A stretch of DNA of 51,730 bases from a virus, in the IMG/VR virus record IMGVR_UViG_3300022074_000065, positions 1 through 51,730 of that record, one strand, 5' to 3'. A program made the position numbers and the translations under genes. Below, piece after piece: positions 4,999 to 51,086 of this stretch; the stretch's first letter is position 1; the number at the start of each line of letters is the position of its first letter. The notes under the pieces were generated by a model, which had not been told where the DNA came from, searched no databases, and saw only the letters and a list, made by a program, of their open reading frames with translations.

Positions 4999-4999
4999 T

Positions 5000-6091: not shown

Positions 6092-6098
6092 AATTTAT

Positions 6099-6130: not shown

Positions 6131-6139
6131 ACACAAGAT

Positions 6140-20842: not shown

Positions 20843-23800
20843 TTAAACTACACATCCGCATGATTGAAATGTTACACTAAAGTTTGGTTGTGGTGTTGTA
20901 AAACTATACATACAAATTATTGTTACATCTGTTGGAAGTAACGTTACTGTTTGAGCGTTTCCTGAACAATCAGTATATGAGAATGTTTGAGAATTTACAC
21001 CATCTAAATTTTCTACAAAATAATTATTACAGACTGTATCACAAGTTCCTGCTACATCTGATCCTTTAGTTGCATTAGTAGGATTTGTAGTAGTACTTAT
21101 AATTTTGTAAACACAATTATTAAAAGGTCCTCCTGTTAGAGTAACTAAATCTCCAATAGAATTACTAGGAGAATAAGTTATTATTCTTTGATCAGGTGTT
21201 CCTGTTCCTGACTGCTGACATCTTTCAACTAAGAAGTTTAGATTACATCCACATCCATGAACTGCAGTAACATCTGTTAATGTTTGAAGTCTATCAGCAC
21301 ATATAATTACAGATTCATTATCTCCTAAACTTCCGTTTTGAAGAACTGCATTACAATCAAAATAAGTATAAGTTCCACCTGTCAATGGTGCTCCTGTTAA
21401 AACATATTGATCACACACTTGAGTACAGCTTGTAACTCCTGATAATATTGCTCCAACTGTGTCTGTTGCTGAAGCAGTAGTTGTAGATGTAACTTCATAA
21501 GTACAACCATTCAAAGCTCCTGTTGGATTAAAGAATGTTCCTACTGTTACTCCTGCTGTTGGTGGAATAATGATAGTTGTTGGAGATAATGTTGTTGCTT
21601 GTGGATCATAACACAATGCAGCCTCTAAATTATCAGTAGGCTCAGGAGTACTGTTACAATCACAACATGCTTCTGCACAAGATACATCTGAATAACATAA
21701 CTCTATTGCAGTAGGTTTTCTATAATCCCAAATCAAATATAAATATTCATCACTAGTATTTGGCATAGCAAACGTAGCATCATATGTCGGAGCAGCACCG
21801 TTTATAGGGCTTGCTTGAGTAGATACATTTAGTAATGTCTGAATGTTTGCCGGAGTATTAGTGTAAAGTGTTGCACTTCTATGGTATCTAAATTGGTTTA
21901 ATGCAGGGTTGAATACAAAGTCATCACCCAATGCTGCAATTTGATTACTAATTATTCTTACAGTAGCACCGTTTGCAGGAATTAAATTTCCGCCTTGTGG
22001 TGCTGTAGTAAGTGTGTATTGTGAAACTAGTAATCCTGAACCACTTTGAAACTCTACTTGTTCAGATTGTAAAGCACTTGTAAATACACCATCTGTCCAA
22101 CGATATTCGTCATGAATAAACTGACCTGCTTCATTATCAGATGTTATTGCTACTTGAATAACATTAATTTTAAGTGCATCAGGACATGTAACGGTAAGGT
22201 CTATATTAACTCTTTCACCACTAACAGCTGCACTATCTAGACTAAGAGTTAGTTCTTCTACTGAAACAATATTTTTATTAAAGGTAGCAGATATCAATCC
22301 ATTACCACTTATGCTACCACTAAATACCTGAGCTCCATTGTAAACTCCTTCATATGGTATAGGAGTACCACCATAGTTTGTGACTTGGAATGTAACAGTA
22401 ACATCTCCAACTAAATTGCCAAGCCTATAAATATATTCTTGGCTTTGTCCATTCCAAACTATACTTCTTGTAACTCCACAATTTATCTCTAGTGGTTCTT
22501 GAGGTATAAATAAATCAGAGTTTGTTAACACATACTCATCCATATACGGATCATATCCGCCTAGCTTAAAAGTATTGAAGTTATCTATAAAGTAATCTCT
22601 GAAGAAAGATCTCATACCAAATTCAGATACGACTTGTAATTGTTCAGATTGAGCTGAACTGCCTTTCAAATGAAGTACTGCACCTCGTTTAGCATCTGTA
22701 AAATATTTATCAGGACCCCAAACAGCGTAGCTTTCAGCATTATTACTATTACCATAATCTTCTATTCGTGCAATTTGAGTACCTAGAACTTCAGGAACTG
22801 AAGCAATTGATCCACCACCTGTTGAATCAGATAATAAATTTTTACCTTGAAGAACGTAAGAAATTTTATCTTCTTGTAAAACTAATATATCTGTTTCTCT
22901 ACCGTCTAACACAGTAATAGGTCCATAAGAATCCTCTAATGGTTTAAAGTTTAATAAACCTAAATTAAATTCGTTAAGCTTATTTAAGTTTGTTTCGTCA
23001 TTAATTACACCACTATAAGTAATGTCAGCAAATCTGTCTGCTTCTTTGTAATCTTGTTCTGATGTACTTGTAACTCTATTACCAAGAGTTAATGGTTTAC
23101 CAATAATAGAATCTTCAATTTTAAAACTCTCTACTCCATTACCAAAACAATAGCAATTAAAAAAATCTGTATCAATAATTGCAGGTAATGCATCTGTTTG
23201 GTTTTGTACATTTCCTTGATGAATTGCACCCGGTAAAGTTACATAGTCAATAGATACATTAGCTAAATCATCAGGAGGTGTTGTAGGACTAACTGCTGCT
23301 GATCCACAATCACCATATACTATTTCTGTTTCTCCGGGATTTACTGTTACACTAAATATTCTATCTTCAAAAGTATAATCAAATACCAATGGAGCAGATT
23401 CATCTGTGTCAACTTGAATTGTTATCTCGCACTCTGCATCAAATATTTGAAAAGTTGTAGGTGATTCATACCATAAATCAGGTAGTGCATCTTTAGGTTC
23501 AGTTTCAAATACAATTAATGTGTCTGTTCTTATTATTGTTATTTCAACTTTTAACCTAGATTTTCTGTTAGTACTACTTCCGCACCCTTCAGTACCTGTA
23601 AAACCTAAAAGTTGTTTTCCTGACAAGTCAGGATCAAAACCAATTGATGGATTATAATTCAAAAACTGTATATAGTTTACTCCAAAAGAAGTTGGAATAG
23701 TACTACCAATACCTCCAAAAACACCTTCTCCCCAAGACCCTATAGCAGAGTCATATTGAAATGTTGATGGGAGAGCAGAAGTATCTGTTCTACACTCTGC

Positions 23801-26345: not shown

Positions 26346-27266
26346 CTATTTTATCCATTTATCTTTACCCCTCATGTTCATTAGTAATCTGCCGGGGTGA
26401 ATATTACTTATTCTAATTTTTGCGTTTCTTAATAAAGCTTGTTTCTTTCTCTTTACTCTATTAACAACGTACTCTTGTACTCCTAACTTGGAACTTAGAA
26501 TAGCATATTCGATATATGCATAAATGTATTCTTCAAATAATTTATTGACACTCACTTTAGAGTTATCACCATTTTCCATTCCATCAGAAATATATTCTAA
26601 TATACATTTCTCGTTAGCCATACCGGAGCTGAAGTTTATTACTCCACCTTTTTTGTTTATTGAGAATGTTGGATTCGCATTTGCAGTTTCAGTATTCAAA
26701 CCAAATCGTGTTCCAATTGCGTAATCAAAATACCAATAACCCTCATAGCACCAACCTTCACATCCATTGAATATACTATTTTTATTTAAATAAATACTCT
26801 TAAGACCACCTGTAATTCTGTCGTAATCGATGTCAGAGAATTGTGGTTTTAAAATGTTTCCATCTTGATCAAATAAAATTCTACAATTATTATCTTGTAG
26901 GTAAGCATCACTCCAATTGGTTTGGATATTTTCTGTTAAAGGATACAATAGACCGTTTTTAAAAACAGATATTCTTACCCAATTAACATAATCAGGAGGT
27001 AAAACAAATCTTAAAGTATTGCATACATCAAGCTCTAATATCTTTATTTCCTTGAATGCATCATAATTAAGTTCTTGTATGCCTCTCTTTGCATGAAACA
27101 GAATCTTATATCTTTCTTCATTATTAACCAAAGAATGATTTCCTGAGTACATCAATAGAAAGTTAGTAACAATATCCTCTAAGCTTACATATTGATACGA
27201 ACCCCAATTAGCATCTTCAGGTTGGTTACCTCCGTTTTCGTAATATTGATATGGTGTTATATACAT
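26346..27266 (-). CDS. ring/tail adaptor protein (crAss-like ring protein type)
   Basis: 306 residues. SLEDIVTNFLLMYSG, HAKRGIQELNYDAFKEIKI and VLPPDYVNWVRISVF are typical of a conserved ring/tubular protein of crAss-like phages. A C-terminal helical pair (EEYIYAYIEYAILSSKLG, then VVNRVKRKKQALLRNAKIR) ends in a basic tail. It sits between the other adaptor gene and the stabilisation protein, with 7-base and 1-base gaps. It should form a dodecameric ring below the portal. Confidence 0.68.
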   Translation of the reverse strand: MYITPYQYYENGGNQPEDANWGSYQYVSLEDIVTNFLLMYSGNHSLVNNEERYKILFHAKRGIQELNYDAFKEIKILELDVCNTLRFVLPPDYVNWVRISVFKNGLLYPLTENIQTNWSDAYLQDNNCRILFDQDGNILKPQFSDIDYDRITGGLKSIYLNKNSIFNGCEGWCYEGYWYFDYAIGTRFGLNTETANANPTFSINKKGGVINFSSGMANEKCILEYISDGMENGDNSKVSVNKLFEEYIYAYIEYAILSSKLGVQEYVVNRVKRKKQALLRNAKIRISNIHPGRLLMNMRGKDKWIK

Positions 27267-29144: not shown

Positions 29145-30626
29145 TTATTCTTCAAATAACACAAAGTTGTTAGCACCCATAACACAAACACATCTTTCTG
29201 ATAAGAAGTTAACCTTCATTTCATCAATGTCTGTAGTAGCTGCTCCACCTGCTGAACCTGTGATCCAAGTCTTGTAACGTCTGTCTTCAGTTTCTGAAGC
29301 TCTGTAACGTACATGAAGGAAAGGTCGCTTAGCGTTTTTACCAAGTACTTGGTCGTATACGCTTGTAGAACCTGCCGGTACTAATAAACCTGTGATAGCA
29401 CCTGAACCTGCAATAACAGGTGTGTTAGTTAAACCACCTCGCATTGTTGGGTCGTTTAAGTACTTCCAATCAGATTTGTAAAAATCATATCCTCTACGGA
29501 ATCCTGTGAATCCTAAGTTAAGAGCCATTTCCTCATCGTTGTCAAATAATCCATAAGATGAACCACCTGCACCGTAAGAGTTTTGAGCTGCTAACATATC
29601 ATCAATATCGAATCCGAATTGTCTGTTAACAAAAAGAACATTCTCTTCGATTGCTCCTTGCTTGTCTAATCTATCAATTACTGCATCAAAGTCAGCTAAT
29701 GCATCAGGGTTTCCACCACCCCACAAGTTACCTCTAGTTCCTACAGCATGGAATACACCTTCAGAACCTACAAGACCTGCAGCTGTTGCTCCTGAACCTG
29801 CTTCAGCAGGTACTGCTTCAATCATAGCTGTCTCTAAATAATCATCAAAACGTAAACGAGTTTCGTGCTCAGACTTTAAATACCATAGGTATCCTGATGC
29901 ACCATTCTCAGTTGTAACTTCGATCCATCCAATTTGAGCCATATCAGATCCATTTACTAAATATGTATCTTTTAAGATAATTGGATTGTTTTCAAATATA
30001 TAATCGTCAGACTCTAAAGAACCTTGCATTCCTGCAGTTCCTTTTTTGAATTCAGAACCATAGATAAATACAGTAACGTCAGATGCACCTAAACTTGTAC
30101 CTGATGTTACTAAACCTGCTCCTTCATAGAAAGCAACTGAAAACTGTAAGATGTTACCACCTACAGCAACTTCTGTTACTATACCTTTGTTCTCACCTGA
30201 ACCATCATTTTGACTTACTACAACAGTTTGTCCCACTCTAAGAGCCGGAGCACCTGATGCATCAAAAGGATTGCTTCCTGTAATTACTGTTCCTGCCGGG
30301 TTTGTCCCGATTGCCGGATCATTGATTTGGAATGTTGCATTATCATCACCTGCTGTTGCTGTTGTTCCAACGTTTACATATTTAATATGTAACCTTCCTT
30401 GTTCTGCCCATTTAATAAGGTCAGAATTTGAAGGCATCTCAGCTCCTACCATTCTTAGGAATGAGCTAAGTGTACGATTACCATATCTTTCGAATTCTTT
30501 CTCATATGTATCAGGAAGATACTGATTCAAGAAGTCAAAGTTAGTAATGTAATTTGACTCCAATGGAACTTTCTGAGCACTAGGCTGTAATGAAAATCCC
30601 GGAGTTCCTGCTAAACTACCTGCCAT
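29145..30626 (-). CDS. major capsid protein (HK97 fold, crAss-like type)
   Basis: 493 residues. NYITNFDFLNQYLPDTYEKE and GNRTLSSFLRMVGAEMPSNS at the N-terminus, and the C-terminal LSERCVCVMGANNFVLFEE, match the pattern of major capsid proteins of crAss-like and related Bacteroidota phages. Residues about 85-190 form a Gly/Val-rich beta insertion (VGQTVVVSQNDGSGENKGIV), probably the surface insertion domain. It follows portal and scaffold genes in normal order. There is no obvious N-terminal propeptide; a separate scaffold gene lies upstream. A hairpin right after the gene may raise its mRNA level relative to downstream genes. Confidence 0.8.
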   Translation of the reverse strand: MAGSLAGTPGFSLQPSAQKVPLESNYITNFDFLNQYLPDTYEKEFERYGNRTLSSFLRMVGAEMPSNSDLIKWAEQGRLHIKYVNVGTTATAGDDNATFQINDPAIGTNPAGTVITGSNPFDASGAPALRVGQTVVVSQNDGSGENKGIVTEVAVGGNILQFSVAFYEGAGLVTSGTSLGASDVTVFIYGSEFKKGTAGMQGSLESDDYIFENNPIILKDTYLVNGSDMAQIGWIEVTTENGASGYLWYLKSEHETRLRFDDYLETAMIEAVPAEAGSGATAAGLVGSEGVFHAVGTRGNLWGGGNPDALADFDAVIDRLDKQGAIEENVLFVNRQFGFDIDDMLAAQNSYGAGGSSYGLFDNDEEMALNLGFTGFRRGYDFYKSDWKYLNDPTMRGGLTNTPVIAGSGAITGLLVPAGSTSVYDQVLGKNAKRPFLHVRYRASETEDRRYKTWITGSAGGAATTDIDEMKVNFLSERCVCVMGANNFVLFEE

Positions 30627-31834: not shown

Positions 31835-34270
31835 CTATCTAGGTTCAAACTCTGCTAAGTCAAACCCATCTAAACTGTCTTCGTTTGATTCGAAATTTTG
31901 TGGTGGAAGATTATTCTTCCTTTGATTTATAAGCTTGGATTGTTCTGTGTTTTGCTGAGAGATTCTTTTTGCTTTTGCTTCTTCTCTAGCTCCTTCACGA
32001 AATGACAATGCTTCCTCTGAAACATTTCTTAGTTGTTGGTTGTAGTTAAATTCTTCAGCCATCAACTGAGATTTTAATTGAGCTTCATTTTGCATCTTCT
32101 CAATTTCAAAAGCAATCTCCGCTTGTTTTAATTGCATCTTAGCTTCAATCTCCATTTGTTGTTTCTGCATTTCTGCTTGAGACTTAGCCTGTACAAGTTG
32201 CATTTGTTGTTGTGCAGCCATTTGTTGTTTCTGCATTTCCAATTGCTCTTGTCTTTCTTGCTTTTGTTTTCTTTTTAATTTCAACAATTGATTAGCAAGT
32301 TTAATATTTTTCAGCTCTCTGATATCTATGGCATCTTCTAAGTTAATATCTTGTTTAGATAAAGCCATTTGAATATTTTGTTCAAGTTGAGCCTTTTGCT
32401 CTTCATCAGGTGCTACATCAATAAAGATTCCAAAATCATATATATATAAATCAGATATATCATTAAGTATACTTACGTTGTACTTACCGATTTTATTTAT
32501 AAAGTCATCTTTAAAATCTGCATATTCTAATATATCAGCTACTCTATATGTTAAAGCTTCAGATAATGTTCTGTATATATATAATGCACCATCTAGTATA
32601 TGTCTAGTAGCTACATTTGAATTTAATGCTGCTAGCTTTTGTAAACCAACTAAAGAGTTAGGATCAGGAGTAGAAGCATCTCTTGCTTCATTTAATCCTG
32701 TCACCTGTCTTATCATACCTAGGTAATGATTATAATTAGCAATCAATGTTTGGGTTTTGCTTGCTCCTGAGTTAGTAGTTAACTCTTTGATAGGAACTTT
32801 TCCTTGATTGAAATCTCCTTCTTGAGTATAACTTCTACCAATAACAGAACCTGTTTGGAAATATAATCTTAATGCATCTTCAGGATTATAAGATCCACCT
32901 GTTCCAAGGTCGACTTCATTTAATCCATCAGCATCTATATATACACCATCAGGTACAGTTCTAGCAATTACTTGCTGTAGCTTTAAGTGAGTCACTTGAA
33001 TTAAATCAGCAAAAGGAATCATTCTTCTTACTAAAGATTCAATAACTCCTTTGTACATTCTTGGTGCTACAGCTACATAGTTTGGTAATGCATGTTGACT
33101 TGATGACTTTGGACGAACCATGTTTTGAGATAACTCCCATTTCAATACAATGTTAGTACCCATAACCATTACTCCATCATACCATACATCAATAGTCTTT
33201 TCAATTTTTTCAAACTGACCATCCTCCATAACTTCAACAGGTGGATTGAATTGGTCATCTTTTTCAATAACCTTGCTTCCGCCTGTAGCCATTATTTTTT
33301 TCTTGTATACTATTTTTTTGGTTGTCTTGTAGTTAAAGTATAAAAGTGTGCAAGTATCTCTATAGAACATATCGTTCTCATAAAATTGAGCTACGTTATA
33401 ATAGTCATACCAATTTTGACTGTACTTGCTAATCTCTTCTAGATCCTCATTAGTTAACGAAGGATCTATTTTCATTAATTCAATAATAGGTAAAGTCTTA
33501 ACTTCTCCCCAATAAAAACAATCCTTGAAATGTGGATCTTCTGTATAGCTGTATACTATATTAGCAGGGTCCACATAAGAAACCTGAACGCCTGAGCCTA
33601 ATAAAAATTCATGCTTAGCTACAGATATACCAAGAACAGTTAAATCATAGTCTAATCTTTTTCTTAAATCAATATAATGATTCTCTTCAAAGATAGTATT
33701 GATTGCTTCTTCTTCAGCTATTTCAATAGAAGGTTTGTAGTTGATCTGCATATACAACGAAAGCTCTTCATCTGTTTGAGGAAGTTGTTCAGGTGATACC
33801 GTAAAGGGATCAAATCCTGATTGTTGTTGTAGATCTAACAAGAAATCTTTGGAAACCATTTGAGCCTCCACCATGTCTTGATACTTACTTCTTTTTGATT
33901 GTGACATTGCATCTTGTGCATATGCCTTTACTTTGAATAATCTATCAGACATCCCGTTTACTACTATGTCAACAAACTTAGGAATGATAGGAACCGGAGT
34001 CCAATCTAAATTTAAATAACTTAGATCGCCGTCAACGGCTAATTCATTCTTATATTTCGCAACTGACTGTTCACCCCTAGCGTATAAACGCAATCGGTGA
34101 AACTGACGGAATTGATCGTAGAACCTACAACTAACTCCATCTCTACGAAACCATTCATATTGTATTGCTTGACCTATTTGCAAGCCATACTCCATGGTTT
34201 CCTTTTCTGCGTCAGATACAAATTGACTTGGGAAAGCTGCAGATTTTATATTTACCTTTACATCTTTCAT
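31835..34270 (-). CDS. portal protein
   Basis: 811 residues, coupled by ATGA-type overlap to the terminase. The body has the usual portal mix of helices and strands (VPIIPKFVDIVVNGMSDRLF; FADLIQVTHLKLQQVIART). NHYLGMIRQVTGLNEARDAS, then DPNSLVGLQKLAALNS, is a known portal feature in this phage group. Residues ~660-760 form a Gln/Met/Lys coiled coil (QLEMQKQQMAAQQQMQLVQA), probably the inner crown helix. A TAACTTTG box inside the end of the terminase gene (34318-34311) may give extra transcription. Confidence 0.8.
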   Translation of the reverse strand: MKDVKVNIKSAAFPSQFVSDAEKETMEYGLQIGQAIQYEWFRRDGVSCRFYDQFRQFHRLRLYARGEQSVAKYKNELAVDGDLSYLNLDWTPVPIIPKFVDIVVNGMSDRLFKVKAYAQDAMSQSKRSKYQDMVEAQMVSKDFLLDLQQQSGFDPFTVSPEQLPQTDEELSLYMQINYKPSIEIAEEEAINTIFEENHYIDLRKRLDYDLTVLGISVAKHEFLLGSGVQVSYVDPANIVYSYTEDPHFKDCFYWGEVKTLPIIELMKIDPSLTNEDLEEISKYSQNWYDYYNVAQFYENDMFYRDTCTLLYFNYKTTKKIVYKKKIMATGGSKVIEKDDQFNPPVEVMEDGQFEKIEKTIDVWYDGVMVMGTNIVLKWELSQNMVRPKSSSQHALPNYVAVAPRMYKGVIESLVRRMIPFADLIQVTHLKLQQVIARTVPDGVYIDADGLNEVDLGTGGSYNPEDALRLYFQTGSVIGRSYTQEGDFNQGKVPIKELTTNSGASKTQTLIANYNHYLGMIRQVTGLNEARDASTPDPNSLVGLQKLAALNSNVATRHILDGALYIYRTLSEALTYRVADILEYADFKDDFINKIGKYNVSILNDISDLYIYDFGIFIDVAPDEEQKAQLEQNIQMALSKQDINLEDAIDIRELKNIKLANQLLKLKRKQKQERQEQLEMQKQQMAAQQQMQLVQAKSQAEMQKQQMEIEAKMQLKQAEIAFEIEKMQNEAQLKSQLMAEEFNYNQQLRNVSEEALSFREGAREEAKAKRISQQNTEQSKLINQRKNNLPPQNFESNEDSLDGFDLAEFEPR

Positions 34271-39122: not shown

Positions 39123-40871
39123 CTATACTGCACCACCGTCTTGCAAGTTACCAAGATCATTTATTAGAGCGTTTCTGCCTGCCACTACAGCTGTATCAGT
39201 TCCTGTATATTTACTGTTTCCAAAAGTAAAATAATTATTTTGAAATTGTGGATTTAAAGGTATACGAGTATATGGAACTCTAGCTCCAAATGCTACCAAA
39301 GTAGCATCATAATTAGAAACACTTAATGTAGGATCATTTGGTGTTGGACCATTAAATGGATTATTCATAAAACCAAATACGACTCCTGTTTGTTTAAGAT
39401 CCCAAGATGACATATCAAAATCAACATTTGTGGCTCCCGCAAACATACCTGATACGGAACCTTGATTTGTTCCCGATCCCACAAAATGTGTACCTGTCAT
39501 GTCCCAAGAACCTAAATCTCTATTAAAAGCTTGTGCAGAGCCAAGGAAACCATCAAATCGACTTACATTAGAAACATTCCAAGAGCTTATATCATCATTA
39601 AAGTTCGTGCAAGCAGCAAACATACTTTGCATACTTACCCCTCTTCCCGAAGGTGATCCACTAGTTCCTGTTCTAAACACCCAATTACCTAAACCTCTAT
39701 CTGCTCCGGTCCCAAAAGATGTGCAACCGCTAAACATAAAATCAAACTCAAAATTATTGGAAACATCCCAACTACCTAGATATTGATCAAAACTACTTGC
39801 ATCTCTAAACATACTTTTTAATCCTCTATTGAAATCCGGGAATAAGCTATATTCTGCATTACTAACATCCCATGAATCAAGTGGTTGATTAAAAATAGTT
39901 GCTTGTTGGAACATAGAGGAAAAATTCTTACAATTACTAGTATTCCAAGAACTAATGTTTCCATTAAAATTTTCACACTCTCGAAACATTTGAAACATAG
40001 TAGTAACATTACTAACATTCCAAGATTCAACTTCAGGACCCAAAAGCGATATTTGTCTATAAAAAGTTTCTTTCATATTAGTTACATTGCTTACGTCCCA
40101 ATCATTTACTCCACTCCAATCTGCTCGTTGGGCAGCGGGAAGTTGAGCTGAATTGAACCCATAATTCAGTGAACATGTTTCTTGTAAACTTTGAACACCA
40201 CTAGTATCCCATTGACTTAAGTAGGGACATGTAAAAGGCTGTGTAGGAACTTGACCGTTTCGTGCTCTGTAGTCTCCGCTCCATAAACCTCTTAAAGATG
40301 TGCCACTAATATGTGGAGGAAAAGTGGGTTTCCATGCTACAGTATTTGATATAGCTGCAAAATAATTAGCTGTATCATAGTCTTCTTGATTTCCACTATC
40401 ACCAATAACATCGGCAGCAAAATCAAATATACCCCAATTTAAAACTCTTAAAAATTTATATGAATCATATGAATTATATACACTAGATGCACTACCATAA
40501 CTCCAACCCTTTAATGTATTTACTGTAGCTGCAGCGTTCATACTTATAGAAATTATTCTATTTATGGAAGTACCATATGTGTGAGTTATTTCAAAATCTG
40601 TAGTAGGAAAAGATGTGTATGAAGTTGTTTGACCATCTCCCCAATCAACATCAATTGCCCAACCTGCTGCAAGGCTAGCTTGTTTAGTAGCCACTATAGG
40701 TCTAAAAGGAAGTCTAATGGTATTATTTCCACTACCTCCATTACCTGTAGCATTTACGGCAACTTCAAATTGAAAAGGTGTAAAATCAGGAGTCCATGGA
40801 AATGGTGGTAAAGGCACTCCTGAAGATTGCATAAAAGGTGTTCCTATTCCTATTCCACATCCTGTTGGCAT
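39123..40871 (-). CDS. BspA-like/DUF285 repeat adhesin
   Basis: 582 residues. Residues ~30-110 form a beta domain with IDVDWGDGQTTSYTSF, a PKD-like WGDG strand. Residues ~200-510 hold at least seven copies of the DUF285 (BspA-type) repeat with the pattern M-F..C..FN..I..WnvSNVt, for example VSNVTTMFQMFRECENFNGN and SCTNFNDDISSWNVSNVSRF-like units. Such repeats form leucine-rich-repeat-like solenoids on the surface of Mycoplasma, Bacteroidota and anaerobes. In a phage the likely role is host attachment. It lies just after the fibre array and before lysis genes, and has no signal peptide, so it is probably a virion part. Confidence 0.78.
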   Translation of the reverse strand: MPTGCGIGIGTPFMQSSGVPLPPFPWTPDFTPFQFEVAVNATGNGGSGNNTIRLPFRPIVATKQASLAAGWAIDVDWGDGQTTSYTSFPTTDFEITHTYGTSINRIISISMNAAATVNTLKGWSYGSASSVYNSYDSYKFLRVLNWGIFDFAADVIGDSGNQEDYDTANYFAAISNTVAWKPTFPPHISGTSLRGLWSGDYRARNGQVPTQPFTCPYLSQWDTSGVQSLQETCSLNYGFNSAQLPAAQRADWSGVNDWDVSNVTNMKETFYRQISLLGPEVESWNVSNVTTMFQMFRECENFNGNISSWNTSNCKNFSSMFQQATIFNQPLDSWDVSNAEYSLFPDFNRGLKSMFRDASSFDQYLGSWDVSNNFEFDFMFSGCTSFGTGADRGLGNWVFRTGTSGSPSGRGVSMQSMFAACTNFNDDISSWNVSNVSRFDGFLGSAQAFNRDLGSWDMTGTHFVGSGTNQGSVSGMFAGATNVDFDMSSWDLKQTGVVFGFMNNPFNGPTPNDPTLSVSNYDATLVAFGARVPYTRIPLNPQFQNNYFTFGNSKYTGTDTAVVAGRNALINDLGNLQDGGAV

Positions 40872-41954: not shown

Positions 41955-42176
41955 TTATTTTTTACAAATTAAGTCTTTAATTTTTTTTGCCACCATTACT
42001 TCAGATTTTAAAACATTATCCGTATCATTTTCTAAAACAAAATCTATAAGTTCACATTCAGATAATGCAGGATAATTTTTTTTATTCCATCTTTTAAAAG
42101 CTTGAATAATAAGATCTAAAATTTCTTCTGAAAATTCTGTTGTTTCAAACCAATGTTTTTCTACTGTTTCTGCCAT
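41955..42176 (-). CDS. small helical protein after the fourth anchor-module gene
   Basis: 73 residues (MAETVEKHWFETTEFSEEIL; FKRWNKKNYPALSECELIDF; a final Lys-rich helix). It occupies the same place after the 163-residue anchor-module protein as the W..YxPTxxE partners do after the three large fibres, but lacks their PTxEE motif. It may be a different partner type or an unrelated gene. Confidence 0.5.
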   Translation of the reverse strand: MAETVEKHWFETTEFSEEILDLIIQAFKRWNKKNYPALSECELIDFVLENDTDNVLKSEVMVAKKIKDLICKK

Positions 42177-42187
42177 TTTTTTTTATT

Positions 42188-42679
42188 TTAAGGGGTTACT
42201 ACTATTCTTCTAATTATAAGGTATCCTGAGAAAGACGTTTCACTAGTAATACCTGATCCGTCTGCAGCAATTCTAGCTTCTCTCACATCAACCGTAGATG
42301 ATTGAAGTTGAGCTCCAAGAATTTGTAAATCACTTCCTGAAATAACAGAAGGACTACTACAAGTTCCCCAAGCATATATATCATTATTTAGATCAACTAA
42401 AGTTCCACCCGTTACGTCAGCATGAAGAGTTTGAGCATTAGTTGAGCTCCAAGTAAAAGTTAATCCTGTATCGTTAGATAATTCTTCAACTCTAAAAGTA
42501 GTCAAACTTCTATTTAGATAAAATACAGCCTCTTTATAAGCAGCACCACCAACAGTATCAATTATATCCTGCATAGTAAAGGCTTCTCTCTTAGCATTTA
42601 GCTGAGCAGACCCCTTATTGTCTGTGTCTACAGTAGAAGCTACTGTATGAAATTTTTGTCCGTTAGGTATTGTTGCCAT
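42188..42679 (-). CDS. short anchor-module tail protein (fibre array member 4)
   Basis: 163 residues. Residues 1-45 (MATIPNGQKFHTVASTVDTD then NKGSAQLNAKREAF, TMQDIIDTVGG) are nearly identical to the first 45 residues of the large fibres at 43015 and 44991. The rest is a compact beta domain (RVEELSNDTGLTFTWSSTNA; DVREARIAADGSGITSETSF) instead of the beta-helix. It is thus the shared anchor joined to another head. Likely a short tail spike or a plug for an unused fibre site. Confidence 0.6.
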   Translation of the reverse strand: MATIPNGQKFHTVASTVDTDNKGSAQLNAKREAFTMQDIIDTVGGAAYKEAVFYLNRSLTTFRVEELSNDTGLTFTWSSTNAQTLHADVTGGTLVDLNNDIYAWGTCSSPSVISGSDLQILGAQLQSSTVDVREARIAADGSGITSETSFSGYLIIRRIVVTP

Positions 42680-42689
42680 AGTTTATATT

Positions 42690-43013
42690 TTAAAATTTAA
42701 TATGCCTCATAGGTGTGTTCTCTGTAGAAAAAGATAAAACACCTTTTTTCTTTACACCATCTACTGTAACATGCATTTGCATACCTGTGGGTGTTACCTT
42801 AGGACCAATTAGTTTTAGATATAATTGGTCAAGCATTTCTACATCTTCAGCAGAAGGTTCTCCATAAAATTTTTTATTTATTTCTTTCATAGCTTCTGCT
42901 AACTCAGGAGTACTCCTAGGGTCATTATATATTGCTTTTTCTTCTTCAGTAGGTTGATAGTTTATTAATTCTATCCAATCTGATTCTATATTTTTTTTAG
43001 TAAAATTTTTCAT
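42690..43013 (-). CDS. fibre partner protein, W..YxPTxxE family (copy 3)
   Basis: 107 residues. SDWIELINYQPTEEEKAIYN aligns with DWKVKIPYKPTEQEQEI and SDWKLMFNYQPTEEENKLL in the proteins at 44633 and 46484. A helical middle (ELAEAMKEINKKFYGEPSAE) is followed by a variable beta end. It starts one base after the fibre at 43015 stops. Genes directly after phage fibres often encode tail-fibre assembly chaperones, so a dedicated chaperone or capping partner is proposed. No known family is recognised. Confidence 0.6.
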   Translation of the reverse strand: MKNFTKKNIESDWIELINYQPTEEEKAIYNDPRSTPELAEAMKEINKKFYGEPSAEDVEMLDQLYLKLIGPKVTPTGMQMHVTVDGVKKKGVLSFSTENTPMRHIKF

Positions 43014-43014
43014 G

Positions 43015-44613
43015 TTAACCTAAATTTATTATTGTGTTTGTATTATCTAAACAGTTTCTAACTTTTGCGTTTCCTGTAACTGCAAATGTTCCACCCGTAG
43101 CTCTACAGTTATATGCTACAGAATCAGTACCAAATGATCCAAAGGTTAATGCGATACAGTTATTAAGGGAAGCACTACCTGAAGATGGAATATTAAAACC
43201 TGAGAAATAAGTAGTAGTTTGACCTCCGAAATTTATAAATGTACTATGACAAACACAGAAATCGTATTTTGGTATTTCAGTAGTTGAACAACTAGTAGGT
43301 GAAAAAGAATCCGGTCCACCGGCACAGTTATTATAATAAGCAGAAACATTAGTTGAATTCGTTCCAAAAGAACTTTCTCCTGCTACACAACCAAAATATT
43401 GACCGCCTTCATCATCAGACTGAACACCAAACATATTCTCTGCTAAGTATCCCGGAGTAACAATACAATCTACAAAAGTTCCATAATTGTATATTGAGTT
43501 ATATGCAAAACTATCTTCAAAACCTCTATCTTGATTTTGACCTAACTCCATGGCAAAAGCAGTTGAATCAGGTGTGGCACCTATTATAAGTGAAGAAATA
43601 CCTATTGCACCGTTTCTTCCAAAACATCTTTTTTGTATTTTACAATCTTGATAAATTCCTGTAAGAACAGTTCCGGAGTATCCACCCCAACCATTTTGAC
43701 CTCCTGTACAATTTATAAAAGTACCGCCTAAGAATCCTGCAGCTGCACCTTCAATGCTATAAGCGTAGTAATCTAAAGACACTATGTTTTTATAAGTAAT
43801 CCAATTTAAATTACTTCCTATTTGAAACTCGCTACCTACCCCTCTTTGATTTTCTTGTCGTAGACCTTGTATTGTTATACCAACGCTTGGATTATCTGCT
43901 CCTGATCTTATTATAACATTAGCTCCTTGTATTTCTACATCAGCGATACCTGAAACAGAAGTAACATTCACATAATCATCTACAACAAAATCCTTACCTC
44001 CTAAGTCGTAACGACCTGATGCTATATAAAGAGTTGCAGGAATTACATCTACAAATTGAAAAGGAAAATTATTTGATCCGTCTGTAGGTAACCCACTAGT
44101 AATTTCAGTACCATCTGCTTCATAAAGTCTCATACTATAAACATATGTATCATAAAGCTCTCCACCGGGGTCAAGAACATAACCATCAACAACAAATGTA
44201 ATAGGTCTTACAGCTCCACCGGCTATATCTGTTTCATAAACCCAAGTTTGACCAAGTGTCGTAGGAGCGTAAGGCTTAGTTGAACTTGTGTATAATTGTA
44301 TCTGCCAACCATACTGAGCAGACCAACTATTATAATCGTAAGTTTGGTAGCTATATAATAGAATAGAGGTGTTGTCAACTATTTTTGTGACTGCCTCATC
44401 ATAAGCTTTTAATAATGTTGCTCCATTTTCCAAAGGGGTACCCCCTGAAGTTGCTAAAACTGAATGAGCTCCGTTTAAACCTCCAACTGATTCAGCAATA
44501 TCAGCCATAGTAAATGCTTGACGTTGTGCATTTAATTGAGCAGAGCCTTTATTCTCTGTATCTACAGCACCTGCGACTGTATGAAATTTTTGTGTGTTTG
44601 GGATTAATGCCAT
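43015..44613 (-). CDS. tail fibre with shared anchor module and beta-helix body (member 3)
   Basis: 532 residues. The anchor (1-45) starts MALIPNTQKFHTVAGAVDTE. A linker helix (ENGATLLKAYDEAVTKIVD) and a beta domain (~80-200) follow, then YVNVTSVSGIADVEIQGANV, the strand that opens the helix body in all three large members. Residues ~255-500 repeat a turn with F-I-N-C or Y-N-C (GGTFINCTGGQNGWGGYSG; GTFVDCIVTPGYLAENMFG), as in right-handed beta-helices. The end GNAKVRNCLDNTNTIINLG matches member 2. Probable receptor-binding spike. It may have depolymerase activity, but no catalytic set can be named. Confidence 0.7.
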   Translation of the reverse strand: MALIPNTQKFHTVAGAVDTENKGSAQLNAQRQAFTMADIAESVGGLNGAHSVLATSGGTPLENGATLLKAYDEAVTKIVDNTSILLYSYQTYDYNSWSAQYGWQIQLYTSSTKPYAPTTLGQTWVYETDIAGGAVRPITFVVDGYVLDPGGELYDTYVYSMRLYEADGTEITSGLPTDGSNNFPFQFVDVIPATLYIASGRYDLGGKDFVVDDYVNVTSVSGIADVEIQGANVIIRSGADNPSVGITIQGLRQENQRGVGSEFQIGSNLNWITYKNIVSLDYYAYSIEGAAAGFLGGTFINCTGGQNGWGGYSGTVLTGIYQDCKIQKRCFGRNGAIGISSLIIGATPDSTAFAMELGQNQDRGFEDSFAYNSIYNYGTFVDCIVTPGYLAENMFGVQSDDEGGQYFGCVAGESSFGTNSTNVSAYYNNCAGGPDSFSPTSCSTTEIPKYDFCVCHSTFINFGGQTTTYFSGFNIPSSGSASLNNCIALTFGSFGTDSVAYNCRATGGTFAVTGNAKVRNCLDNTNTIINLG

Positions 44614-44620
44614 GGTTTAT
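44576..44620. repeat. 45-bp exact repeat, copy A (5' end of fibre 3)
   Basis: Identical by eye to 46438-46482. It covers the first 13 codons of the fibre gene, its ATG and 7 bases upstream. A 19-base part also occurs at the start of member 4. Identity at DNA level beyond what the protein needs points to recent duplication or recombination between fibre genes. Confidence 0.85.
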
Positions 44621-44632
44621 ATTTTAAAGTTT

Positions 44633-44983
44633 TTAAAATCTTTTTTGAATTAAGTTGCTGCCTATATAATAATTAAAAATACCTGAATACTCTATACCTC
44701 TATCGCTTGTCACTTCTCTCATAACTTCAATAGCAGATAGATTGTAATAAGACAAATCCATTCCTTTTTTTAGCCTTACTTCTAGTGCATTTAACCAAGC
44801 AAGATCATCTTCCGTTGGATCTTCAATACTTTTACTAACTACATTTTTTATAGTGCTTTTCTTTAACTCTAAATCTTCTTGAGTATCAGGTACGCTGTTT
44901 ATAATTTCCTGTTCCTGTTCTGTTGGTTTATATGGAATTTTAACTTTCCAATCTCTTTTGTTTAACTTGTTAAATTTTTTCAT
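44633..44983 (-). CDS. fibre partner protein, W..YxPTxxE family (copy 2)
   Basis: 116 residues. RDWKVKIPYKPTEQEQEIIN carries the family motif. Helices with PTEDDLAWLNALEVRLKKG parallel PSAEDVEMLDQLYLKLIG in copy 3. The last 45 residues are a different beta-like end. It starts 7 bases after the fibre at 44991 ends. The conserved front and variable back suggest that the front docks to a common part of the fibre while the back matches its own fibre. Confidence 0.6.
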   Translation of the reverse strand: MKKFNKLNKRDWKVKIPYKPTEQEQEIINSVPDTQEDLELKKSTIKNVVSKSIEDPTEDDLAWLNALEVRLKKGMDLSYYNLSAIEVMREVTSDRGIEYSGIFNYYIGSNLIQKRF

Positions 44984-44990
44984 GTTACTT

Positions 44991-46475
44991 TTAGTTTAAA
45001 TTTATTGTATTGTAACTTCCATCAATAGAGTTTCTTATTATACCCGAGCCTGATGTAGCAAAGCTTCCGCCTGTTACACAATTAATGACAACACCATATG
45101 CTGTTGATCCAAAGCCATTACCCTCAGATATGCAGCCTATATAAGTTCCTCTAGATGATTGATTTGCAGTAGGTGAATACCCAAAATTATCATTACCTGC
45201 AGACGTACAGTAATAATATTTAGACTGATCTGTATCAGCATCAACTGAACTAGTGTTATTAGATCCAAAATTACTACCTGTGGTTCCACCTCCGTTAGAT
45301 ACGAAACCATGACAGTTAATAAAAGTACCACTGTTTTTGTCACTACCTGAACCAAAATTATTCTGTCCATAAGCACGACAGTTTTCAAAATAAGCAATAA
45401 CATCATCAGAATTGTGTCCAAAAGCATTATCTCCTGCAGTACAGTTAATAAACGTTCCTCCACATTGTGTAGTAAAAGACCCAAAACCACCATTTGCAGG
45501 AAAATCGCCTCCATCTATCGAGCAACCCTCAAAATAACCGGATGAAATTGAACCCGAACCGCCTGCAAAACCGTTACTTCCTATACAATTTATAAATGTT
45601 CCGGAAGCATTTTTACCGACACCTTGACCGAAGCTACCGCCATGGCAGTCAATAAAAGTACTTGACTGATTAGCTCCTCCTGCTTCAGAAGAAAAGGAAC
45701 TAAAATTCGTAGATTTTATGTTTTTAAAAGTTACAAGACTCAAACCTTCTTCAATATATAAATAATTATCATCACCTATAAGTAAATTAGCATAAAAAAT
45801 ATTATCAAAATTAGCCTCAGGTTTTATTATGACATTTGCTCCATAAATATGTACATCTCTTTCGCCTGTTAATGAAGTTATAGAAACCAAGTCTTCTACT
45901 ACAAGATTAGAGGGTATTTCGTAATCTCCCGGACCAATCATTAAATAAGAAAGTTTTGTTGTACCACCATAAACCGGGATTTGAGTGAAATCAAAAACTA
46001 GGTTGTCTTGGGGATTTCCGGAAGTATCTGTAATATATACAGCTAAAGCTCCACTTGAATTAACCATTTCTATTCTCCAAACAAGTGTTTGAGCCGGGAC
46101 AGTTCCATAGCTAACTGTGTAATTTACGTTTATAGCAACATCTGCAGGATTTACACCTACCGTATCAAAGATATAATACTGACCATTCCCTCTATCTACC
46201 TGTCTACCTGCTACATAATTAGTAATACCTCTAGTATCTATAGATTTTGATGCAGCGTCTGTATATGCTGCTAGCAACGCTACTCCGTTTTCTTGAGGTG
46301 TCCCATCAGCTTTTACATAAACTGAAACGCTGCTATCTACTCCGCCTACAGTATCAGCAATGTCTTGCATAGTGAATGCTTCTCGCTTAGCATTTAACTG
46401 AGCAGATCCTTTGTTTTCTGTGTCTACAGTAGAAGCTACTGTATGAAATTTTTGTGTGTTTGGGATTAATGCCAT
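44991..46475 (-). CDS. tail fibre with shared anchor module and beta-helix body (member 2)
   Basis: 494 residues. The anchor (1-45) begins MALIPNTQKFHTVASTVDTE. A middle beta domain includes LMIGPGDYEIPSNLVVEDLV and then VHIYGANVIIKPEANF. Residues ~225-450 are at least eight turns of ~25 residues with x-F-I-N-C or Y-x-x-C and F-G corners (SGTFINCIGSNGFAGGSGS; AYFENCRAYGQNNFGSGS), a clear parallel beta-helix. The tail GIIRNSIDGSYNTINLN matches member 3. Likely a trimeric receptor-binding spike. The gene is followed by its own partner gene. Confidence 0.7.
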   Translation of the reverse strand: MALIPNTQKFHTVASTVDTENKGSAQLNAKREAFTMQDIADTVGGVDSSVSVYVKADGTPQENGVALLAAYTDAASKSIDTRGITNYVAGRQVDRGNGQYYIFDTVGVNPADVAINVNYTVSYGTVPAQTLVWRIEMVNSSGALAVYITDTSGNPQDNLVFDFTQIPVYGGTTKLSYLMIGPGDYEIPSNLVVEDLVSITSLTGERDVHIYGANVIIKPEANFDNIFYANLLIGDDNYLYIEEGLSLVTFKNIKSTNFSSFSSEAGGANQSSTFIDCHGGSFGQGVGKNASGTFINCIGSNGFAGGSGSISSGYFEGCSIDGGDFPANGGFGSFTTQCGGTFINCTAGDNAFGHNSDDVIAYFENCRAYGQNNFGSGSDKNSGTFINCHGFVSNGGGTTGSNFGSNNTSSVDADTDQSKYYYCTSAGNDNFGYSPTANQSSRGTYIGCISEGNGFGSTAYGVVINCVTGGSFATSGSGIIRNSIDGSYNTINLN

Positions 46476-46482
46476 GGTTTAT
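46438..46482. repeat. 45-bp exact repeat, copy B (5' end of fibre 2)
   Basis: Second copy of the stretch at 44576-44620; the two are 1862 bases apart in the same orientation. Unequal recombination between them would delete exactly one fibre-partner pair (fibre 2 body plus partner 2), leaving a reading frame intact. Confidence 0.85.
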
Positions 46483-46483
46483 T

Positions 46484-46897
46484 TTATAATGTTATCTTTT
46501 TATATTCTGTTTCGTCTTTTTGTTTGTATAAAATTTCTGAATGAACTTCAGAACTAGTAGCAATTATTGAACCTTCAACATCTAATTCAGATGAATCAAT
46601 TCCATATAATTCCCACAAGATATTTAAATAAGTATTTACAACATTTAAATCTTTTTCTTCAAGTTCCAATCTGTATTTTAATTGAAGCTCTTTAAGTTTT
46701 AAACTTTCTTCTTGTGAAGGATTACCATTAATAAATAGTAATTTATTTTCTTCTTCAGTAGGTTGATAGTTGAACATTAACTTCCAATCTGAATTTATTT
46801 TTTCTTTAACAAAAACTTTTTTTTCTCCATCAGAAATGTGACTTAAAATTTCGCTTACATTTATTTCGCTATTTTTTCTTTTAAATAAGTTTTCCAT
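46484..46897 (-). CDS. fibre partner protein, W..YxPTxxE family (copy 1)
   Basis: 137 residues, with ~28 extra N-terminal residues compared with the other copies. SDWKLMFNYQPTEEENKLLF carries the motif; a helical middle (EESLKLKELQLKYRLELEEK, DLNVVNTYLNILWELYG) and a divergent C-terminus (VEGSIIATSSEVHSEILY) follow. It lies 20 bases after the fibre at 46918, within the same run. Same proposed role as the other copies. Confidence 0.58.
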   Translation of the reverse strand: MENLFKRKNSEINVSEILSHISDGEKKVFVKEKINSDWKLMFNYQPTEEENKLLFINGNPSQEESLKLKELQLKYRLELEEKDLNVVNTYLNILWELYGIDSSELDVEGSIIATSSEVHSEILYKQKDETEYKKITL

Positions 46898-46917
46898 TTT
46901 TTTATATTATAAAATTA

Positions 46918-48498
46918 TTAAGGTAATGTTACTGATGTCCAAGTAAATTTTGCCAAGCAATTTGTTAATTTTCCTGTTCCATTAACTGACCATTGTGATG
47001 CTACTGTATTAAAAACTAGTCCTCCATCTGTAACAGCGGTAACACCACCGCTTACGTCTAATATACAATTATAAAGTTCTTTATCTTCAATAGCTCCTGA
47101 TGCATTTATAAAGCTTTGGTCTTGCCCTTTACAATAATAATATTTAGGAGATGCACCTTGAGTACCTCCTGTAAAACATTGATTTGTTCCGTTACAGTAT
47201 TCATATCTTGGACATTCATTATTATAACAATTCGTTCCAAATGAAGAAGTACCTGCGTTACACGCATAGAATACAGCACTTGTTAAAATAGCATCTGCTG
47301 AATTAGCAAAACAAAATACATATCCTTTACAAAAATAGTACTCTGCTCTTACGCTTAAAGCTTGTCTACCAAATGAATATTGGTTTGCTTCACAGTTATA
47401 ATATTTTCCCCTTTCAATATTAATTTGATGACCAAAACTATAATCAAATCCTTTACATCTATAATGTCTAGCATAATTATTATTTCCGACTCCTTGACCA
47501 AAAGAGTAAAAACCACCTTCACAATCCATAATTTCATGAGTAAGCTGTCCTGTATTCCCCGGTTTAATAGAAAACGCATTCCATCCGTAAGATTTGCAAT
47601 TTGAAACAACAAGTCTTGTATTGTCGGCTCCTATAAATATAGAGAATAAACCGGTGTCTGTATAATCTTCATTACCGGGATTTGATGTTATTACTGTACT
47701 TAATCCATTTATATAAGTATTAAATTCATTGTTTACATTTCCTGCTTGAATATCTACGTTTGCACCTTGTATGATTACGTCAGATTGACCTGTTGATGAA
47801 GTTACATTTACATATTCTCCATCTAAAATCCAATCTTGCTCTATCTCATAGATTCCGGGTTCAATTATTAAATTTGCAGCTACAGGTGACAAAATAGGAA
47901 TAAGTCCTGCTGCAAAACCTCCTGTAGTATTGTTGGGAGGAAATGGAGCCGGAGAGCCTGATCCACCTGTGCCTACAAGCTCAGTTCCATCTTCCTTATA
48001 ATATCTTACTGACCAACCATCAGCAGATGGTGCAGGAATACCATTTCCACCGGCTTCTACTACAGCTGTAAGTACTATCATTTCATTAACACCTCCGTTA
48101 TCTATAATTGCAGTACCTTTATATGTATATCCTCCTTCAGGAATATAAGGCAACGGAAAGAATGGCAAAAATTTTCCTATACTCCAAACCCCGTATGGTA
48201 TACCTTGGTCAGTTCCTACCCATGTCGTTGTAGCAAGAACATATTGCGTTGACGATAGTATAGAGGATACTTTAGTTTTAGCTTCTTCATAACCTTTTAA
48301 TAAAGCTACTCCGTTTTCTTTTGGTGTACCGTCAGATGCAACATAAACATTGTTAGTTCCTGATAGCCCTGCGGTATCTATAATATCTTGCATGGTAAAA
48401 GATTTTCTATCTGCGTTAGCTAATCTTGAACCTTTATTAGAAGTATCCACATCACCTGATTGTGTGTGGAACTGTTGATTAAGTGGTATTAATGCCAT
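46918..48498 (-). CDS. tail fibre with diverged anchor module and beta-helix body (member 1)
   Basis: 526 residues. The anchor MALIPLNQQFHTQSGDVDTS, then NKGSRLANADRKSFTMQDII, is the most diverged of the large members. A Pro/Gly-rich segment (~85-200) is followed by LIIEPGIYEIEQDWILDGEY and DVIIQGANVDIQAGNV, as in members 2 and 3. The body (~270-470) repeats Y-x-C turns (NYARHYRCKGFDYSFGHQIN; RGKYYNCEANQYSFGRQ). The end is GTGKLTNCLAKFTWTSVTLP. First fibre after the TATCTTTG box at 48710. Confidence 0.7.
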   Translation of the reverse strand: MALIPLNQQFHTQSGDVDTSNKGSRLANADRKSFTMQDIIDTAGLSGTNNVYVASDGTPKENGVALLKGYEEAKTKVSSILSSTQYVLATTTWVGTDQGIPYGVWSIGKFLPFFPLPYIPEGGYTYKGTAIIDNGGVNEMIVLTAVVEAGGNGIPAPSADGWSVRYYKEDGTELVGTGGSGSPAPFPPNNTTGGFAAGLIPILSPVAANLIIEPGIYEIEQDWILDGEYVNVTSSTGQSDVIIQGANVDIQAGNVNNEFNTYINGLSTVITSNPGNEDYTDTGLFSIFIGADNTRLVVSNCKSYGWNAFSIKPGNTGQLTHEIMDCEGGFYSFGQGVGNNNYARHYRCKGFDYSFGHQINIERGKYYNCEANQYSFGRQALSVRAEYYFCKGYVFCFANSADAILTSAVFYACNAGTSSFGTNCYNNECPRYEYCNGTNQCFTGGTQGASPKYYYCKGQDQSFINASGAIEDKELYNCILDVSGGVTAVTDGGLVFNTVASQWSVNGTGKLTNCLAKFTWTSVTLP

Positions 48499-49013: not shown

Positions 49014-49481
49014 TTATGAATAAATTCTAATTTCAAATGGAGCAGCCTCAAGAACATCATCACTAGCAGTACCGCTTGCTCCTGTTTCAACAGTAATTAA
49101 ATCAGGCTGCGACACTTTAGCCCTTGGTTGTTCTGCATTAGGGTTAGTTGGAAAACCATAATTGATCCATATCTGAACTTTAGTTGCAGGATCAAAAATT
49201 GGACTATCCGCTGTAAGGGTATATACACCCGGACTAACTCTTCTCCATGTAAGGGTTGCACCTGTGCTATTCTCAAACAAACTTACGACTTCAGGGTCTT
49301 GAGTAGATTGCTGAGTTAGTAATGCAGAATATACATTATAGCTCACAGTACCTCCACTTTGAATAGATCCTACCGTAATATTTTTAGTTGCATCATTATC
49401 TGATTTATCGGTTATAACAATCAAATCATCGCTTGATGCATTAACGATTGGATACGAACCTGTGTTGCTTATCTTTGCCAT
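49014..49481 (-). CDS. small tail or fibre-associated beta protein
   Basis: 155 residues. The N-terminus (ISNTGSYPIVNASSDDLIVI, TDKSDNDATKNITVGSIQ) follows the pattern of phage fibre N-terminal adaptor segments (K-I-S-x-L...DDLlvItD...TkniTv). A beta domain of ~100 residues follows (LTWRRVSPGVYTLTADSPIF; PFEIRIYS). Comparable to the short anchor-module proteins but with a different anchor, so it may occupy another tail site. Confidence 0.55.
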   Translation of the reverse strand: MAKISNTGSYPIVNASSDDLIVITDKSDNDATKNITVGSIQSGGTVSYNVYSALLTQQSTQDPEVVSLFENSTGATLTWRRVSPGVYTLTADSPIFDPATKVQIWINYGFPTNPNAEQPRAKVSQPDLITVETGASGTASDDVLEAAPFEIRIYS

Positions 49482-50460: not shown

Positions 50461-50622
50461 TTATTTCTTTTTACTGCCCTTAGCGTAATTAGGGTCTTTA
50501 CAATATTTACTTGCTGCCATATTCGCATACGCTGACGGATATGTATCAAAAGTTCTCTTTGCCCAAGCTATTCCTGCTGCACAAATTTTATTTCCTTTTT
50601 TCTTTGTTCTTCCTTTTGCCAT
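50461..50622 (-). CDS. 53-residue small protein, Cys/Lys-rich
   Basis: ATG 50622 to TAA 50463-50461, overlapping the previous stop by one base (TAATG). MAKGRTKKKGNKICAAGIAW, then AKRTFDTYPSAYANMAASKY and CKDPNYAK. The pattern C-x-x-G...AK..FD.YPSAYAN..ASK.C is common in small phage and giant-virus proteins of unknown function. Basic ends with two cysteines suggest a compact nucleic-acid-binding fold. Confidence 0.62.
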   Translation of the reverse strand: MAKGRTKKKGNKICAAGIAWAKRTFDTYPSAYANMAASKYCKDPNYAKGSKKK

Positions 50623-51086
50623 TATGTTGATTTAGCTTGTATTACTATCCATTGTGTTCCATCAGACCAAACTGCACATCCATTAAATGCTTTGTTGATT
50701 TCATATGTTGCACCTCCATCTATATTCTCACCAACAGGTGCGGCTAAGTCAATTTTAGTATTAGCACCTATTGTACTATTATTTACAAAACGAATCTTTC
50801 TGTAAGGTATAGCTGTAGCACTAGGAAGAGTATATGTATACGTTCCGGAGTTACCTACCCAATCAAAGTCAACTATGTTAACCATTTCAGTAAGTGTACC
50901 GGTTCCTCCCGGCGAGGCAGTCACAAACAACACAGGTTCTATTTTTATAATTCCCTCTGAACAAGAATCACATATTTCATCTATTGTGTATGCATCTCTC
51001 TTAGAGTTCAGACTTGCTGAACCTCTGTTAGACGTATCAACAGAAGGAGCTACTCCATGAAATTTTGTACCATCAGGTATTGACAT
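50622..51086 (-). CDS. anchor-module tail protein (distant member, 154 residues)
   Basis: Residues 1-42 (MSIPDGTKFHGVAPSVDTSN, then RGSASLNSKRDAYTIDEICD) are a diverged copy of the anchor module of the fibre array. The rest is a beta domain (VEPVLFVTASPGGTGTLTEM-like strands and TYTLPSATAIPYRKIRFVN) ending QWIVIQAKST, similar to small phage head-of-fibre domains. It stands 2.1 kb upstream of the main array and has no W..YxPTxxE partner. It shows that the anchor is a reusable docking module. Confidence 0.6.
   Translation of the reverse strand: MSIPDGTKFHGVAPSVDTSNRGSASLNSKRDAYTIDEICDSCSEGIIKIEPVLFVTASPGGTGTLTEMVNIVDFDWVGNSGTYTYTLPSATAIPYRKIRFVNNSTIGANTKIDLAAPVGENIDGGATYEINKAFNGCAVWSDGTQWIVIQAKST

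Follow-up and report, generated by a model that had tools for sequence, protein, structure and literature searches.

Three tailspike-like genes, each with its own downstream partner, in a crAss-like phage, and a unit of spike body and partner that moves between N-terminal anchors

The window analysed here is the whole of the 51.7 kb virus record IMGVR_UViG_3300022074_000065 of IMG/VR and represents the structural half of a phage of the crAss-like (Crassvirales) type. On its minus strand, upstream of the terminase, lies an array of three large genes (F1, F2 and F3), each followed by a small gene (C1, C2 and C3) for what is called here the partner. The large genes are predicted to encode tailspikes with an N-terminal anchor and a beta-helix body. 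The mobile unit is the spike body with its partner, joined to whichever anchor a phage uses. All open reading frames (ORFs) of the array named in a first-pass annotation of this DNA were present at their coordinates on the minus strand. The features are listed below, with lengths in nucleotides (nt) or amino acids (aa); L numbers denote the other loci compared, and HMM stands for hidden Markov model.

F1: 46918..48498, minus strand, tailspike-like protein of 526 aa, anchor at about residues 1-45 and predicted beta-helix body; body homologous to F2 and F3 (E 5e-38 and 6e-34)
C1: 46484..46897, minus strand, partner of F1, 137 aa, with about 26 additional N-terminal residues; partner-family HMM E 1e-30
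F2: 44991..46475, minus strand, tailspike-like protein of 494 aa; the spike used for modelling
C2: 44633..44983, minus strand, partner of F2, 116 aa; 65% identity to the partner of L004, whose body is F2-like
F3: 43015..44613, minus strand, tailspike-like protein of 532 aa
C3: 42690..43013, minus strand, partner of F3, 107 aa; 50% identity to the partner of the F3-like spike of L005
A4: 42188..42679, minus strand, 163 aa, same anchor module on an unrelated C-terminal body, without a family partner; anchor 91% identical to that of F2
C4: 41955..42176, minus strand, 73 aa, after A4; outside the partner family and kept at the same place in L005 and L006
A5: 50622..51086, minus strand, 154 aa, the fifth protein with the anchor (E 1.6e-14 to A4); C-terminal part matching the baseplate-protein family phrog_20556 (E 7.7e-5)
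Exact 45-nt block, identical at the starts of F2 and F3: 46437..46481, minus strand; assessed by synonymous recoding

Each spike gene is directly followed by its partner gene, with gaps of 20 nt (F1-C1), 7 nt (F2-C2) and 1 nt (F3-C3). The partners C1-C3 belong to a single family (BLASTP E 1e-7 to 6e-6; none of 500 shuffles was as good), as had been noticed at first reading. The large proteins had been described as sharing their N-terminal module; they do share it, but not it alone, being paralogues over the full length (30.6-31.6% identity, E 1e-34 to 1e-54). C4 was considered as a fourth partner and rejected (shuffles as good in 486 of 500 cases against C1, 8 of 500 against C2 and 11 of 500 against C3). 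In L004, a close relative, one pair lies at the same place, followed by the 69-70-aa gene that in the window follows C4.

Five window proteins have the N-terminal module of about 45 residues in common: F1, F2, F3, A4 and A5. Its presence on the three large proteins and A4 was borne out (59-91% identity; the observed scores were reached by none of 500 shuffles), while A5 had been missed. The array holds, as had been suggested, several proteins of receptor-binding type on one anchor module, each large one with its own partner. An anchor HMM found 125 anchor ORFs, at 51 distinct loci in the first search. The bodies on this anchor vary and include short bodies of 150-200 aa, bodies ending in Peptidase_S74 (L012, L023), tandem short arrays and beta-helices. 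In L051, four short anchor-module proteins stand in tandem at 3288-5534, their genes overlapping or abutting, and a fifth lies at 10001-10564.

Partner-first scans, which used alignments of single clades since a mixed alignment was too divergent, gave 49 distinct partners, 3 at contig edges and 46 with readable upstream sequence. Forty-two of the 46 start -28 to +27 nt from the stop of a beta-helix spike gene and 4 lie one inserted gene after a beta-helix body, so that all 46 belong to such a body (E <= 3e-29). The inserted genes are Anp1-like in L086 (5371-6087) and L090 (2504-3223) and of the GT25 type in L141 (5322-5987); the fourth is L103 6711-7466. Three of the four were tested, and all three are glycosyltransferase-like. 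The product of such a gene possibly modifies the spike or the host surface with sugars. When the search started from the bodies, 40 of 50 distinct bodies had an adjacent partner and 4 had a partner after one gene. Beside the bodies of L081 and L100 lies a divergent small gene of partner-like appearance, which falls below the HMM threshold. L005, the nearest relative, carries two consecutive spikes 10 nt apart and a single partner after the second.

An adjacent partner was found for none of the 76 anchor proteins without a beta-helix body and for 10 of the 13 with such a body (Fisher p 6e-11; counting distinct anchor proteins whose downstream sequence extends for 450 nt or more). Three tested anchor proteins without a partner end in Peptidase_S74, the intramolecular chaperone. 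The bodies that do bear a partner carry about 24 N-terminal types, and the L104 body sits on the T4 gp9/gp10 N-terminal domain, which is of baseplate type. The partner adjoins a beta-helix body whatever the anchor. The first-pass annotation had taken anchor module and partner family as the cassette. That version fits three of the five anchored proteins inside the window, but HMM searches with both families placed the partner with the beta-helix body (46 of 46) and not with the anchor alone. With no partner on body-less anchor proteins and so many N-termini above partners, it fails by the condition that the annotation had itself named, and hardly any credence is left for it.

The partner follows the distal end of the spike and barely the anchor. 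In a Mantel test of 35 spike-partner pairs, partner distance gave r of 0.84 with the last 45 residues of the spike, 0.77 with the proximal body and 0.23 with the first 40 residues (anchor), all of these values being inflated by common ancestry, which leaves the contrast with the anchor unaffected. The partial r was 0.65 for the C-terminus given the proximal body and 0.43 for the proximal body given the C-terminus. Natural swaps showed the same co-transfer of body and partner. Between L042/L043 and L087/L088 the partners are 97-98% and the spike C-termini 89-96% identical, but the anchors only 20%. The spike of L004 joins an anchor like that of F1 (78%) to a C-terminal half like that of F2 (59%), and its partner resembles C2 (65%).

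The bodies of F1-F3 are predicted to be right-handed beta-helix tailspikes, and the earlier label "fibre" is better replaced accordingly. In an AlphaFold2 (AF2) model of F2 built with 24 homologues, a helix at 60-77 was confident and a beta-helix ran from about residue 175 to the end (494), with a predicted local distance difference test score (pLDDT) of about 90 for the greater part of residues 175-300 and varying after that; neither the anchor nor residues 85-170 gave a confident model. The Sf6 tailspike was the top match in VIA alignment (Z 25.7, root-mean-square deviation 3.2 A, 325 residues, 12% identity). Lower-ranked matches were phi29 gp12, Dettilon, CBA120 TSP3 and alginate-active enzymes, with tailspikes down to Z 19. 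Plain Foldseek was weak (best E 0.011), and the fold assignment therefore relies on alignment scores and on the logic of the repeats, which are cysteine- and glycine-rich coils of 20-21 residues (F-x-N-C-x-G-G-x-x-S-F-G). The last residues of F2 align to Sf6 residue ~554, close to where that beta-helix stops, with no separate C-terminal domain seen. Pfam and PHROG scans of the spikes gave no usable family. A PDB sequence search with the body returned only a pentapeptide-repeat protein (E 0.01), and tblastn against 50,697 phage records gave no match for F2 at E<=1 or for the L106 spike at E<=0.1. The spikes would be homotrimers on the tail, and the three may serve different surface glycans.

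Coil number differs widely between relatives, from about 8 to 24 (331-665 aa) among L042 6555-7691, L043 1763-3151, L087 1526-2521 and L088 1074-3071. The L088 spike contains a 63-nt tandem repeat in 22 copies, whereas no tandem DNA repeats were found in the window spikes. Spike length seems freely variable, with repeat collapse in assembly as an alternative cause. These loci provide a natural series of spikes that differ almost solely in coil number. A short body with the pattern VY[ST]ALLTQ ... EIR[IV]Y also occurs on differing N-terminal modules (window 49014-49481, L083 614-1282, L091 4936-5397); it adjoins a beta-helix spike in L083 and L091 and represents a second exchangeable body, without a partner.

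The HMM built from window-type partners alone (window, L004, L005) already finds other partners at E 1.6e-11 to 2.9e-5, and partner homology therefore does not depend on iteration alone. An AF2 model of C2 built with 23 homologues (pLDDT 93.8) showed small N-terminal strands, three helices and a long C-terminal antiparallel sheet. The most conserved segment of the family is the C-terminal hairpin, G-I-[LI]-N-x-R-x-N-x-E-H-x-Q-[IV]-R-F. VIA and Foldseek returned middling and unrelated rows for the partner (best Z 7.9, a chondroitin synthase), and no fold was assigned from them; these lists are compatible with a fold shared with T4 gp38 or the V22/A5 chaperones. A PDB sequence search with the partner gave no usable match, PF02413 (Tfa) was not among Pfam matches of 23 members (none at E<0.05), and the main-clade partner had no tblastn match at E<=0.1 in the same phage records.

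Exact DNA is shared between the anchors of the array, 45 nt between F2 and F3 (starting 7 nt before the ATG) and 39 nt between F2 and A4. In both pairs the length of the within-gene block was reached in none of 2000 synonymous recodings, and the DNA shared by the F3 and A4 anchors was within chance in this test. Such patches suggest recent recombination or gene conversion in the anchor DNA, and because of them the anchor may be the seam between the array genes. Upstream of their start codons F2, F3 and A4 have an AT-rich leader in common (AAAATATAAACC/T or AAAATAAACC). No obvious Shine-Dalgarno sequence was seen before the anchor genes. Counts of a sigma-70 promoter pattern in the array were not above shuffles, and a terminator pattern occurred 8 times against 4.0 +/- 2.1 expected, the two best being anchor coding sequence on the opposite strand.

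The phage context was read from the remaining structural genes. The window encodes a crAss-like portal (31835-34270, phrog_6547, E 9.6e-142), a muzzle protein (20843-26344, PF25731, E 3.6e-9), a capsid protein (29145-30626), a ring-type structural protein (26346-27266) and a primase of the PF08800 type. Portal, muzzle and the order terminase-portal-capsid-ring-muzzle are those of Crassvirales-type phages. The closest named portals are from an uncultured podovirus (77%), Maribacter phage Panino (50%) and Flavobacterium elemo phages (45%). With flavobacterial podovirus portals nearest and a crAss-like gene set, we take the window phage to be a crAss-like member of the phages of Bacteroidota, most likely of Flavobacteriia. 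Just downstream of the array, at 39123-40871, lies a BspA-like DUF285 repeat protein of 582 aa; its counterpart in L005 (4624-6693, 689 aa) has another number of WDVSNVTNM repeats, and the protein is a candidate second length-variable surface protein. The C-terminal part of A5 also resembles a baseplate protein of the archaeal Haloarcula californiae tailed virus 2 (33% identity, E 8e-3). Phage GroEL and GroES genes occur in relatives, in L004 at 4395-6325, just upstream of the spike region, and in MT497065, PP540027 and MW202828; a part in spike folding is conceivable for them.

The cassette is present in crAss-like phages and in at least one contractile-sheath phage. A crAss-like portal was found on 14 of the 31 partner-bearing viral contigs, while L136 (122 kb) has no crAss-like portal and encodes a contractile-tail sheath that passes the Pfam cut-off. 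Most of the 31 contigs carry one pair and L126 carries two; the three pairs of the window are the highest count found here, the counts elsewhere being lower bounds because the contigs are fragmentary. The cassette was also found on two contigs of bacterial metagenome-assembled genomes, labelled Flavobacterium and Paludibacter.

By its gene position, its one-to-one pairing and its distal co-divergence, the partner fits a spike-specific assembly partner. We propose that the three paralogous spikes would use one common N-terminal anchor, carried also by two short proteins, to attach to the virion, and that their other end would be a right-handed beta-helix whose terminal coil is conserved. Each partner, not itself part of the virion, would bind this distal, C-terminal coil of a freshly synthesised spike and drive its folding or trimerisation, as a trans-acting counterpart of Mu U, T4 gp38 and S74. 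Body and partner would move as one exchange unit, fitted to the anchor of each lineage, and recombination in the anchor DNA would let one phage collect several spikes. We regard it as somewhat probable that the partner is a transient, spike-specific folding or trimerisation chaperone acting at the distal end, and the chaperone-like role that had been suggested from T4 is still the best analogy. A transient chaperone is favoured over a retained tip because of its precedents: folding or trimerisation of the distal fibre is the task of Mu U, T4 gp38, V22 gp27 and Pam3 gp25, of which V22 gp27 comes off the folded fibre and Pam3 gp25 is missing from virions.

Several results weigh against this chaperone. 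Bodies with the same C-terminus are found without an adjacent partner in L047, L107, L093 and the first spike of L005, and the partner may therefore not always be needed by the spike. The partner had no family in Pfam or PHROGs, its model had no clear match in PDB or BFVD (Foldseek, VIA), and hhalign gave a probability of 0.4% against Mu U and, with single sequences, of 0.1% each against T4 gp38 and V22 gp27. The spikes without an adjacent partner also speak against a permanent virion tip or C-terminal cap that would replace the Sf6-type trimerisation domain and perhaps touch the receptor, giving a two-component spike like S16 gp38 on gp37. Such a tip is a tentative alternative. F2 ends at about the point where the Sf6 beta-helix does and shows no additional domain there, partner divergence follows that of the spike C-terminus more closely than any other part, the C-terminal hairpin is the most conserved part of the partner, and the Mu and Ur-lambda chaperones were reported to remain on virions (PMC9608196). 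Against it, most known downstream partners of such size are transient (T4 gp38, V22 gp27 and Pam3 gp25 are not in virions), and the partner has no lectin- or adhesin-like fold match. In the fuller form, the partner would stay on the spike as its stable second subunit, encoded by a gene of its own, and would cap the distal end, complete the trimer and contact the receptor; this we hold slightly more doubtful still. If it were true, Bacteroidota phages would use two-gene tailspikes with separately exchangeable anchor, length (coil number) and tip, and this phage would bear three such spikes per virion.

Where the anchored proteins sit is a separate matter. In crAss001, gp21 residues 1-38 and gp29 residues 1-58 bind a capsid pocket, and head and tail fibres alike dock by short N-terminal segments (PMC10172136), so head fibres whose module of about 45 residues binds a capsid pocket are a live rival. 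Five anchored proteins, several of them short, would suit many capsid sites, and one family body has a weak Phage_head_fibr match. We nevertheless consider a capsid location unlikely, as the best structural matches of the body, by fold only, are tailspikes and polysaccharide lyases, the module occurs on a protein annotated "putative tail fiber" in the cultured Flavobacterium phage elemoA, and the L104 body uses the baseplate-type N-terminus. Nor did the window module detectably match any crAss001 ORF, among them gp21 and gp22. A relation of the LPIV..K.TV N-terminal modules of related spikes to crAss001 gp22 residues 27-60 was considered and rejected, the score being no better than shuffles. 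For the partner, a role as a spike-linked accessory, such as a regulator or an inhibitor that shields the producing cell, appears quite improbable. A glycosyltransferase gene can separate spike and partner, and otherwise nothing direct favours it; one-to-one co-divergence with the last 45 residues of the spike and a translational type of spacing or overlap, typical of assembly partners, argue against it.

Crassvirales have been reported as the most abundant human-gut viruses, and in the structure study of crAss001 most tail appendages were not resolved (PMC10172136). The partner family, unannotated in Pfam, PHROGs and the 50,697 phage records, marks a mobile spike module in Bacteroidota phages and provides a cut point for comparing spikes between phages, with the anchor on one side and body plus partner on the other. 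The chaperone reading predicts that soluble production of such spikes needs co-expression of the partner.

The arrangement is closest to that of phage Mu, where S-U and S'-U' (Tfa, PF02413) likewise combine a constant N-terminus with alternative C-termini, each moving with its own downstream assembly protein (the layout was read in the Mu record). The window differs in that its partner has no sequence or profile similarity to U, neither an invertase nor inversion repeats were seen at the array, and three complete pairs of beta-helix spikes and partners stand side by side. T4 gp37-gp38 shares the small gene directly 3' of the distal fibre gene, but the partner is unlike gp38 and gp37 is not a beta-helix spike. 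The fibres and cognate chaperones of Alteromonas phages V22 (gp26-gp27) and A5 (gp8-gp9) are likewise common to phages of differing tail morphology, come from marine phages and have a small helical-plus-hairpin partner (PMC7289586, PMC10579305). They differ in that no profile similarity to V22 gp27 was found and their fibres are of the knob-and-head type, related to pyocins, and not beta-helix spikes. The likeness of the partner's helices and hairpin to the A5/V22 chaperones and to S74 domains (PMC10579305) is a resemblance in words only.

The podoviral tailspikes of the Sf6/P22 type share the right-handed beta-helix body, as the F2 model indicates, but the window spikes have coils of 20-21 residues and, instead of carrying their own trimerisation domain, are followed by a partner gene. 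In K1F endosialidase and the T5 fibre, by contrast, Peptidase_S74 belongs to the fibre chain itself, from which it is cleaved; here it is found on other bodies with the same anchor and no partner (L012, L023). The multi-spike phages CBA120, phi92 and Klebsiella phage K64-1 also have several different tailspikes per virion, and CBA120 TSP2 and TSP3 and K64-1 S2-4 were among the F2 fold matches. Their spikes differ more in body and form a branched complex, and we know of no partner gene of the window family beside them. A variable distal part with its own chaperone under a constant anchor is thus already known from Mu, and module sharing between unrelated phages from A5 and V22. As far as the databases searched show, what is new is a partner family that has no annotated relative and goes with beta-helix tailspikes, its spread over many anchors in crAss-like phages and beyond, and the presence of three paralogous pairs in one genome.

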